The notes beneath the pieces were generated by a model that saw nothing but the letters and a program-made list of their open reading frames with translations, did not search any database and had not been told where the DNA came from. The translations under genes and the position numbers were made by a program. A stretch of DNA of 37,021 bases from Candidatus Edwardsiibacteriota bacterium (GTDB lineage Bacteria > Edwardsbacteria > AC1 > EtOH8): NCBI GenBank assembly GCA_025453955.1, contig JALOPJ010000013.1, forward strand, positions 1 to 37,021, written 5' to 3'. Within the stretch, counting starts at the first letter, position 1, and each line of letters starts with the position of its first letter. Shown piece by piece: positions 1 through 37,021 of the stretch.

Positions 1-1053
1 CCCGGCGGCCACCGATCCCATCCCGGCGCCGAAGGGATCGTGCTGGACGATGTAGAGCCAGCCCCGGAAGAACCCGCCCATTTTCGCGCTGGTGTAGCTT
101 TCCTCGGGCGAGACCATCAGATTGACGCGCTCCCTGAACACCTCGGGACCGAGCAGGTACGAGGCCAGCACGATGACGATCAGCAGCGCCCACAGCCGGC
201 GGTCGCGCATCGAGCCGAGGAACAGGACGCCGATGATGATCGAAAGCCACGATATCCGCAGCAGCGTGTACCCCACCGCCAGCAGGGTGACGGCCATGGC
301 CGCGGCCAGCACCGGCCGGTGTTTCCGATCGAGCGAGGTCCACAGCGCGATGATCAGGAAGACGTTGATCACGCCGTAGGGTCCGACGTTGGTCCAGTGC
401 AGGCGCAGCGCTCCGGAGGCGATCGGCGGATTGACGACCCGGTCGGCGCCGATGATCACCGGGAACAGGTCGTAGCTTCCGTAATACTGCAGGAACCCCC
501 ACAGCATCCGCAGGGTGCAGGCCGCCGCCAGCACGACCAGCAGCCGCTTCAGCCATGGTTCATCCAGATCGAACGATGCGGCGAAGACATACACCGGCAG
601 GAACATGAAGTACCATTTCCATCCGACCGCCGCCACCAGCGGCCCGCTGGACTTGACCGTGGCCATCGCCGCGGCCAGCAGGAGCAGGGCGATCGCCGCA
701 TTGATCCTGCCGCGCTCCACCAGCGGACTGACCGATACGATCCGCTTCACCACCCAGATGCCGCCGAACGCGAACAACAGCAGTTCCTTGGTCCCCCCCA
801 CCAGGGACTGCGGGAAGTATGCCAGCACGACGTCATGGAACGGCATGTACCCGACCAGCAGGGCCAGCCCCAGGCGCTCCTCCCTGAAGAAGACGATGAA
901 CAGCAGGAAGGCGAGCAGCAGGCCGACGGCGTACACCCGGTGGTTGAGGAACAGCCAGCCGGCCGTCAATCCCAGCACCAGCAGGCCGAAGACGACCAGG
1001 GACCGCCGCAGCGGGGTCTCGCTACCGGCCGGCCAGTTGCCGATAGAAGGCAT
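1..1053 (-). CDS. O-antigen polymerase/ligase-like multi-spanning membrane protein (partial, C-terminus beyond left edge)
   Basis: Own translation of the minus strand from ATG at 1053: MPSIGNWPAGSETPLRRSLVVFGLLVLGLTAGWLFLNHRVYAVGLLLAFLLFIVFF..., hydrophobic and open to the left edge. Not listed in the ORF track because no stop lies in the window. Overlaps the upstream GT stop by about 32 nt. Confidence 0.75.
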   Translation of the reverse strand, partial: MPSIGNWPAGSETPLRRSLVVFGLLVLGLTAGWLFLNHRVYAVGLLLAFLLFIVFFREERLGLALLVGYMPFHDVVLAYFPQSLVGGTKELLLFAFGGIWVVKRIVSVSPLVERGRINAAIALLLLAAAMATVKSSGPLVAAVGWKWYFMFLPVYVFAASFDLDEPWLKRLLVVLAAACTLRMLWGFLQYYGSYDLFPVIIGADRVVNPPIASGALRLHWTNVGPYGVINVFLIIALWTSLDRKHRPVLAAAMAVTLLAVGYTLLRISWLSIIIGVLFLGSMRDRRLWALLIVIVLASYLLGPEVFRERVNLMVSPEESYTSAKMGGFFRGWLYIVQHDPFGAGMGSVAAG

Positions 1054-2155
1054 GCGATCTCTCCGCCACCGCGTTCCAGCTGAACTGCCGCCGGGCGCGA
1101 GCCCGGCCCTCGGCGATCATCGACCGGCGCAGCGCGGCGCCGGCCATCACCCTGTCGATGGCCGCGGCCAGCGCGGCCGGGTCCCCCTCCGGCACCACCA
1201 GCCCGGCGTCACCGACGATGTTGGGGATCTCGCCGGACGCCGAGCCGATCACCGGGACGCCGCAGACCATCGCCTCCACCAGCACCAGTCCGAATTGCTC
1301 CTTCAGCTTCGGCATGGTGACCGAGGGAAGCACGAACAGGTCCATCGCGGACAGGTAGGCATGGACCAACCGGTGCTCCGGCAACGCTCCGGTGAAGAGC
1401 ACGCGGCCGTCAATGCCGAGTTCCCCGGCACGGCGCACCAATCCGGCGCGCGCCGGCCCCTCGCCCACGATCAGCAGCCGGTGCGGCCGGGCCACCCGGG
1501 CCGAGGCCTCGAGCAGATGGCGCAGTCCCTTCTGCTCGGTCAATCTGCCGGCGTACCCGATCGTGAAGCGATCCAGGCCCAACCGGGCCCGCAGCCTGGC
1601 CCGGTCGGCTGGGACCGCAGGCCGGATCGAGGGATCGTATCCCTGTCCCGCGACCACCGCCGGCCCCCGGTACCCCTTGGCCCGCAGCACGTCGATGCCG
1701 TCATGGTTGCCTGTCAGGATGCCGTCCGCGCCGCGCAGCACGGCCCGCTCGATGGCGGAAACCGGCCAGGGGAACCGCAGCACCAGGTTCTGCCAGGCCA
1801 GCAGCGCGTACTTCGCCCCCACCGCCCGGGCAAGCATCAGGCCCTGCAGCGCGGTCAGGCAGTACGGCTCGACCTCGAACTGCACGAGGTCCGGCCGGAA
1901 GTCGCGGAGATGCCGGTAGATCGCAGGATAGTAAAGATAGCTGATGTTCTTGACGTTGGGCGTGACCGGCACCGCATGGACGGCGAACCGGCCGGCGTTC
2001 CCCAGGTACGCCCGGTATCCCTGCCCCAAGTGGAGGGCCGGCCAGTACGCCGGCGCGATCAGCTGCAGCTCGAGATCGGGGTACACCGACAGCGCGACCA
2101 GTTTCTCCTGGTTGGTCGCGATCACCGCCGCGTGGCTGACGATGCTGATCCTCAT
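1022..2155 (-). CDS. Glycosyltransferase family 4 (GT-B fold)
   Basis: 377 aa; contains IGYAGRLTEQKGLRHLLEA and FGLVLVEAMVCGVPVIGSASGEIPNIV, typical of GT4 C-domains. Confidence 0.88.
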   Translation of the reverse strand: MRISIVSHAAVIATNQEKLVALSVYPDLELQLIAPAYWPALHLGQGYRAYLGNAGRFAVHAVPVTPNVKNISYLYYPAIYRHLRDFRPDLVQFEVEPYCLTALQGLMLARAVGAKYALLAWQNLVLRFPWPVSAIERAVLRGADGILTGNHDGIDVLRAKGYRGPAVVAGQGYDPSIRPAVPADRARLRARLGLDRFTIGYAGRLTEQKGLRHLLEASARVARPHRLLIVGEGPARAGLVRRAGELGIDGRVLFTGALPEHRLVHAYLSAMDLFVLPSVTMPKLKEQFGLVLVEAMVCGVPVIGSASGEIPNIVGDAGLVVPEGDPAALAAAIDRVMAGAALRRSMIAEGRARARRQFSWNAVAERSHAFYRQLAGR

Positions 2156-33313: not shown

Positions 33314-33350
33314 AAGACCCCCGACGAACGTCGGGGGTCTTTTCTTTTCT
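33314..33350 (+). terminator. Rho-independent terminator
   Basis: AAGACCCCCGACGAACGTCGGGGGTCTTTTCTTTTCT: about 12-bp GC-rich stem with T-rich tail. Confidence 0.9.
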
Positions 33351-35349: not shown

Positions 35350-36687
35350 CTAGGGTCTCTGCCCGGTCAGTTTCTCCAGCGCTTCCAGGTATTTTTCGCT
35401 GGTCTTCTTGACGATCTCCTCGGGCAGCTGCGGGCCCGGGACCTGCTTGTCCCAGTCCAGCGTGCCCAGGTAGTCGCGCACGAACTGCTTGTCGAAGCTG
35501 GGCTGGGAAACGCCCTGCTGGTAGGCGTCCTTGGGCCAGAACCGGGACGAGTCGGGCGTCAGCACCTCGTCGATCAGGATCAGCCGTCCGTCGTGGTCGC
35601 CCATCTCGAACTTGGTGTCGGCGATGATGATGCCCTTCTGCTCCGCGATGCCGCGCGCAGTGGCGTACACCGCCAGCGAAAGGTCGCGGACCCTGGTCGC
35701 TTTCTCGCGGCCCAGGATCTCCGACATCCGCTCGAACGAGATGTTCTCGTCGTGGCTGCCGATCTCGGCCTTGGTGGACGGCGTGAAGATGGGGTCCGCC
35801 AGCCGCGAGGACTCGACCAGGCCCGCGGGCAGCGCGATGCCGCAGACCGCGCCGGTCTTCTGGTAGTCCTTGAGGCCCGAGCCGGTGAGGTAGCCGCGCA
35901 CGATGCATTCCACCGGCAGCGGCCTGGCCTTCTTGACCAGCATCGAGCGGCCCGCGAGATCGTCCGCGTAGGGCCGGCAGGACGCGGGAAATTCCGCGAC
36001 ATCGGTCGCGACCAAATGGTTGGGCATGATGCCGGCCACTTGCCCGAACCAGTAGCGGGAGATCTGCGTCAGCACGTAGCCCTTGAAGGGGATGGCGTTG
36101 GGCAGTACCACGTCGAAGGCCGAGATGCGGTCGGTGGCCACGATCAGCAGGTGCTCGCCCAGGTCGTAGATGTCGCGCACCTTGCCCTGGGAGATCTTCT
36201 TCAGGCCGGGGAAATCCGTCTGCAGGATGGTCTTCATCGGTGTCGAGGGCGCTGTTAACGATTGTGAATGAATGCAGTCGTTGACGTACCAGGACAGCCG
36301 CTTGCCGCAGCGGCAGGTGTGCGCGGCCTCTTGTTCCGCCTGCCAACGCTGCGGCCCGACCCGCCGGATCCGCTCGATATTCGCGATCGTCTCAGCGTGG
36401 TGCGGCGCCCCGTCCGAGGTGAAATTGCTGGAGCGCTCGCAGGGGAACTCCCCGCAGTCGCCACAGTGGGCGACGCCCCTGGCCCGGGCGCAGGTCTTGA
36501 TGGCGCAGTCGCCGCAGCGGTCGTCGACCCGGCAGCCCCGGCACTCCTCCAGCGGCTGGTCCTTGAGGCGGTCGTACGTGGCGGGCATGGCCGCCAGGTG
36601 CCGCCGGTCCTGCTCCGAGGCCGCGACGCGGAAGCTGCAGGCCCCGCAGTACAGGCCGCAGTATGCCAGCAGGTCCAGGTCCGCCAT
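35350..36687 (-). CDS. purC: DUF3795-like Cys-rich domain fused in frame to phosphoribosylaminoimidazole-succinocarboxamide synthase (PurC)
   Basis: Residues 1-150 [61 protein letters not shown]...; residues 151-445 [53 protein letters not shown]...[16 protein letters not shown]. No stop between; PurC alone would be 35350..36237. Confidence 0.88.
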
Positions 36688-36705
36688 GGATCGCAGCGCA
36701 CGTTT

Positions 36706-36730
36706 AAATAGGACTAATATAGTCCTATTT
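36706..36730. promoter_or_regulatory. 25-bp palindromic operator-like site with IscR type-1-like core
   Basis: AAATAGGACTA-ATA-TAGTCCTATTT: 11-bp perfect arms; core GACTAATATAGTC. Confidence 0.6.
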
Positions 36731-36742
36731 CAATACGGGCCG

Positions 36743-37021
36743 TCACTCCGCGAACCGCTTCTCGATCTCCTCGGACTTGCGCTCGACGTCGGCCTTCATG
36801 GTGTCGCGCATCACCTCGAGCTTGCGGGCGATCTCGGGGTACTTGATCGACAGGATCTGCCCGGCCAGGATCGCCGCGTTGCGGGCGCCGTCCACCGCCA
36901 CCGTGGCCACCGGCACCCCCGGCGGCATCTGCACCGTGGCGTAGAGCGCGTCCACGCCGGACAGCGCGCCGGACTTGAGCGGCACGCCGATCACCGGCAG
37001 GGTGGTGTGGGCCGCCACCGC
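36743..37021 (-). CDS. purE: N5-carboxyaminoimidazole ribonucleotide mutase (PurE), partial (N-terminus beyond right edge)
   Basis: [62 protein letters not shown]. Confidence 0.93.

Follow-up and report, generated by a model that had tools for sequence, protein, structure and literature searches.

A palindrome in the gap between purE and purC

What is a perfect palindrome doing in the short gap between two purine biosynthesis genes of an uncultured bacterium, and which protein, if any, would bind it? The window analysed here (the whole stretch of DNA, 37,021 nucleotides) carries the sequence AAATAGGACTAATATAGTCCTATTT at 36706–36730 (no strand assigned), matched exactly and consisting of two perfectly complementary 11-base arms flanking ATA. 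As a sequence-only reading had stated, this 25-bp palindrome sits in a 55-base gap, bounded by the purE stop codon (36743, minus strand) and the ATG of a DUF3795-purC ORF (36687, minus strand). The upstream neighbour purE (AIR carboxylase; 36743–37021, minus strand; Pfam AIRC, 100.7 bits) is represented by its 3′ part, being cut by the window end. The DUF3795-purC ORF (35350–36687, minus strand), the presumed target, encodes 445 amino acids with matches to Pfam SAICAR_synt (253.3 bits) and DUF3795 (48.2 bits), and its purC part keeps an internal ATG of its own. The fusion reflects loss of a stop codon (window 36255–36320); in the sister species the two ORFs are separate, with a TAA between them and no indel.

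The window has a G+C content of 68%, and just two inverted repeats with arms of at least 10 bases and a loop of at most 8 occur in it, the palindrome being one of them. The other is a G+C-rich, terminator-like hairpin with 13-base arms, AAGACCCCCGACGAACGTCGGGGGTCTT, at 33314–33341. Among 15 first-order Markov shuffles of the window, arms of at least 11 bases with loops of 0–8 arose in 2, and with a loop of 3 in none. A single palindrome, taken alone, would be mildly unusual at most. The weak promoter-like TTGAAA that the same reading had noted beside it is present (36728–36733, minus strand) and could serve as a weak −35 element with the palindrome as spacer, but this is doubtful: a sigma-70 scan at the palindrome found no promoter, and the only −10 candidate, TATTTA (36705–36710, minus strand; chosen by eye), 17 bases beyond TTGAAA, is poor. 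A terminator scan at the palindrome was likewise empty and no T run follows on its 3′ side, which rules out an intrinsic terminator at this place.

Copies of the palindrome across the lineage

Copies were sought by pattern alone, with up to three mismatches, in the assembly of the window's genome (G000; 2.52 Mb, 88% complete), its sole congener (the sister species G001) and the other members of a family set of 10 genomes. The family's regulator gene also occurs on a contig named Candidatus Edwardsbacteria, and the window's genome probably belongs to that lineage. With ATAGGACTANNNTAGTCCTAT and at most 3 mismatches over 18 fixed positions, 11 places were found in G000 and 0 with the reversed control. 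Ten of these (at most 2 mismatches) are strong copies of ATARGACTANNNTAGTCYTAT, again against 0 for the control, so that the genome scan suggested by the sequence-only reading did return further copies. The eleventh copy, on contig C193, is weak, and the orthologous place in G001 has a better site. At up to 2 mismatches the motif was present in 9 of the 10 family genomes and in none of 51 genomes outside the family. Because the pattern recurs at 11 places against 0 in the reversed control and is missing from all 51 outside genomes, its repetition is far beyond chance, and a lone chance palindrome is ruled out.

An Rrf2-family regulator with the palindrome in its own promoter

The copy on contig C95 lies in the promoter of a gene for an Rrf2-family regulator (943–1353, minus strand; 136 amino acids), with yjbQ divergent. 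That such a regulator would be encoded in the genome had been anticipated, and this protein is the sole full Rrf2-family regulator found in the G000 assembly. It scores 93.7 bits with Pfam Rrf2 (cut-off 30) and 92.3 bits with TIGR00738 (cut-off 73.3), which places it in the superfamily, yet it belongs to no named equivalog and falls far below the IscR, NsrR, RirA and CymR cut-offs. Its promoter reads TTGACA, 16 bases, TATAAT, and the 23-mer begins with the last AAT of the −10 element. The same arrangement, TTGACA-16/17-TATAAT with the −10 end inside the 23-mer, was found in all 9 readable Rrf2 promoters (G000, G003 to G009 and the locus L108), each of which carries the palindrome; the corresponding region of G001 is a run of N and unreadable. 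Judged from sequence, a palindrome abutting the −10 element in this way is the classic arrangement for the operator of an autorepressor, and comparison of the promoters supports well the prediction that the operator covers the −10 end and the start region. Since one near-identical copy lies in the Rrf2 gene promoter, the palindrome in the window is most likely a site of this regulator. We therefore consider it likely that the palindrome is the operator of a homodimeric Rrf2-family regulator encoded elsewhere in the same genome.

Within the family, G002 (89% complete) alone lacks a motif match, and it alone lacks a full Rrf2 hit. A wide search for the same Rrf2 protein returned four loci, one of which, at 38% identity (Hydrogenedentota), had no palindrome. 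The locus L108, whose contig is listed in a MAG assigned to Sideroxyarcus, contains an Rrf2–ferredoxin–rubredoxin–hybrid cluster protein operon with the same promoter as in Ca. Edwardsbacteria; this contig was probably mis-binned.

In eight aligned Rrf2 proteins, C92, C98 and C103 (spacing C-x5-C-x4-C) are invariant, as is E8, a pattern that would fit an Fe-S cluster. The genes behind the Rrf2 gene encode a 4Fe-4S protein, a rubredoxin or flavin reductase-rubredoxin, cupin-like and YedF-like proteins and a hybrid cluster protein, and this gene set suggests redox or NO defence.

Genes adjoining the copies and conservation of the sites

Besides the window palindrome (contig C83) and the Rrf2 promoter, strong copies in G000 were located at purB (C100), at the purL/deoD and deoD/purF junctions (both on C208), at recA/recX (C179), at a DNA polymerase III delta′-like gene (C210), between a cheC-like gene and a TPR protein gene (C79), between an M20-like peptidase gene (named by eye) and a SET-domain protein gene (C31), and inside a DTW-domain gene (C162). 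The weak copy on C193 lies between a MOSC-like gene (named by eye) and a gene of no assigned name. Purine genes (purC, purB, deoD and purF) thus adjoin 4 of the 10 strong sites, and deoD and guaA adjoin sites in G001. The purine loci are not independent, because a single contig of the sister genome carries purB, purL, deoD and purF close together; the best count is one cluster and purC, to which the sister adds guaA. The weight of this association, and of the association with stop codons described below, was judged from counts.

Several features of the G000 assembly were recorded at these loci. Its guaA contig (L117:1–20) starts a few bases past the end of the equivalent G001 guaA site; G000 may also have a guaA site that was cut off by the contig end, and the assembly may break at palindrome repeats. 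The purB gene is spread over three frames (L016:728–1929) and deoD is shorter than in G001 (L019:2283–2954), both of which are probably frameshift errors in the MAG.

Sites occur at the same places in G000 and G001 for deoD, recA/recX, cheC/TPR, M20/SET, the DTW-domain gene and the C193 locus. At deoD the arms are identical in the two genomes, both changes fall in the central spacer, and the site lies equally far from the deoD start in both (about 13 bases); the upstream flank is not alignable. The copy in the DTW-domain gene is in frame (L018:6301–6323, L076:2646–2668), a strong site in G000 that has decayed in G001, and the copies in both genomes may be mere coding sequence. Conservation in close relatives therefore holds for the Rrf2 site and several others but not for the one in the window: the palindrome is absent from the purE/purC gap of G001, and a scan upstream of purC in the relatives found no site, so that a conserved purE/purC site is ruled out. 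In favour of the proposed link to a purine biosynthesis gene, several copies lie at purine genes. The regulon predicted for the genus includes purine genes, and the expectation is therefore that it takes in DUF3795-purC as well.

Sites at stop codons and alternative explanations

The stop codons of recA, deoD, the M20-like gene and the MOSC-like gene lie inside or just before copies of the palindrome (recA-stop copies at L017:6574–6596 and L075:1432–1454). In G003, G005 and G007 a copy is found at the ilvE stop, facing a convergent rsuA. Copies at ilvE stops were recorded at L080:3010, L085:2218 and L086:2814, with another at L072:2836; a copy on contig C14 of G001 resembles these and is followed by a terminator-like hairpin (seen by eye). 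Some of the stop-codon copies are flanked by convergent genes and lie out of promoter range of any downstream gene, and neither these nor the stop-codon copies in general are explained by a simple promoter operator. An ordinary reason may be that a G+C-rich genome seldom has the TAG/TAA of the half-site other than at stops, where new sites would then tend to arise.

Such placement is what would be expected of a small repeat, mobile or REP-like, that has spread in the genus, favours stop codons, contains or mimics the Rrf2 operator and has no regulatory role in most of its copies. The G000 copies are indeed very alike, and the stops of four genes in this genome and of ilvE in three relatives fall at the repeat. 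We nevertheless regard this explanation as unlikely. Only about 23–29 bases are common to the copies, whose flanks are unrelated; the purE/purC gap is of similar length in G000, where the palindrome is present, and in G001, where it is absent, which indicates that there was no clean insertion; and purine genes recur beside the copies. Hits to Y1_Tnp, the REP-transposase family, run opposite to the number of sites (G004, 5 hits and 1 site; G000, one weak partial hit and 10 sites), and a REP element with its RAYT is ruled out on these counts.

Alternatively, some other dimeric regulator, such as a purine repressor of unknown type, might bind the palindrome, with the Rrf2 gene as merely one of its targets. 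In the genus, purine genes turn up often among the targets, the presence of a site at the promoter of a regulator is by itself no proof of autoregulation, and the G000 assembly is incomplete, so that another regulator could be absent from it. This reading appears improbable, given that the genomes with a single site (G004, G008 and G009) have it at the Rrf2 promoter and that the GACT-AGTC core is that of characterised Rrf2 regulators (PMC9973013, PMC6599224). It is very improbable that the element acts as RNA, through a transcript hairpin shaping the 3′ ends, stability or translation of its neighbours: several copies do lie at gene 3′ ends and the hairpin is stable (11 pairs, −12.3 kcal/mol, z −5.1, as expected of any perfect palindrome), but the element overlaps the −10 at Rrf2 promoters, leaving its first bases untranscribed from that promoter, neither a T run nor a predicted terminator accompanies the window copy, and the copies agree in the very sequence of their arms, which pairing alone would not demand.

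A predicted regulon that includes purine genes

The palindrome is thus very probably a real operator, predicted for an uncharacterised Rrf2 subfamily whose sites adjoin purine genes unusually often. Several observations count against this explanation: the congener lacks the window site, no good promoter was found at it, one site lies inside coding sequence, several others overlap stop codons or lie between convergent genes, the purine loci are not independent, and the assembly, at 88% completeness, could be missing another regulator. The Rrf2 protein would hold an Fe-S cluster through its conserved Cys and Glu residues, and in its cluster-bearing form would bind the palindrome and repress by covering promoters. 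At operon junctions, it may cover an internal promoter or block elongating RNA polymerase. Damage to the cluster or its shortage (oxygen, NO, iron) would lift repression, and in the window's genus the regulon would have grown to take in purine genes.

A reason for joining such a sensor to purine synthesis is offered by PurF. When the PurF proteins of both congeners were aligned with the Bacillus subtilis enzyme (1ao0), Cys was present at all four positions that we take to be the Fe-S cluster ligands of that enzyme. The predicted Fe-S type of PurF offers such a reason short of proof. We propose tentatively, and with somewhat more doubt than confidence, that in this candidate phylum an Fe-S-sensing Rrf2 protein has turned purine regulator, tying purC, purB, deoD, purF (the predicted Fe-S enzyme) and guaA to the redox or Fe-S state, and that it may block polymerase at operon junctions and not only act at promoters. 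Bacterial purine synthesis is mostly under purine-sensing repressors or riboswitches. If an Fe-S sensor does act on purine genes, a cell with a predicted Fe-S PurF could adjust its purine synthesis to the supply of clusters or to their damage. Text searches of an open library turned up no title or abstract describing an Rrf2 purine regulon, which is weak evidence of absence. The sites described here also give a first predicted regulon for the uncultured candidate phylum, testable in vitro with synthetic DNA.

Comparison with IscR, RisR and RsrR

The core of the palindrome had been likened to the centre of the IscR type-1 site, with differing flanks, and this description is borne out. The window site shares the central GACTRWWWYAGTC and the total length of 25 with the IscR type-1 consensus ATASYYGACTRWWWYAGTCRRSTAT (PMC6599224), and 17 of 25 positions agree, 13 of them being the inner core, as against 4 of 12 outer positions. 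The family assignment that was drawn from it is supported by promoter comparison at the level of a predicted Rrf2 operator, but not for IscR: the Rrf2 protein of G000 scores 51.9 bits against an IscR equivalog cut-off of 207.55, and its cysteines are C92/C98/C103, unlike the C92/C98/C104 of IscR (PMC6599224). Whether copies precede isc or suf genes had been suggested as a check, and no such copy was found: a SUFBD profile gave no hit in G000, G001, G003 and G009 and the NifU_N (NifU/IscU) loci of six genomes had no palindrome nearby. The low score, the SUFBD result, the NifU/IscU loci without a site and the poor flanks together rule out a strict IscR with an isc/suf regulon, and on these sequence comparisons the IscR label should be dropped.

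The best PDB match of the Rrf2 protein profile is RsrR of Streptomyces venezuelae (6hsd, 6y45; E 1.6e-13, residues 7–92 only). A Glu residue serves as a cluster ligand in RsrR, according to the title of a cited reference, and E8 is invariant in the Rrf2 proteins described here. RisR of Myxococcus xanthus, a member of Rrf2 group IS6, represses isc and suf and recognises the operator T(T/G)GAC-N7-GTCC(T/A), placed over the −10 (PMC9973013). It differs from the present case in that no isc/suf site was found here, and the likeness is drawn from its operator and description rather than from its protein sequence. The two have in common a GGAC-N7-GTCC core, seen in the window site and its copies, as well as A+T-rich flanks, an operator over the −10 and a three-Cys Rrf2 protein. 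By its GGAC-N7-GTCC core, the predicted operator appears closer to that of RisR than to IscR type 1.
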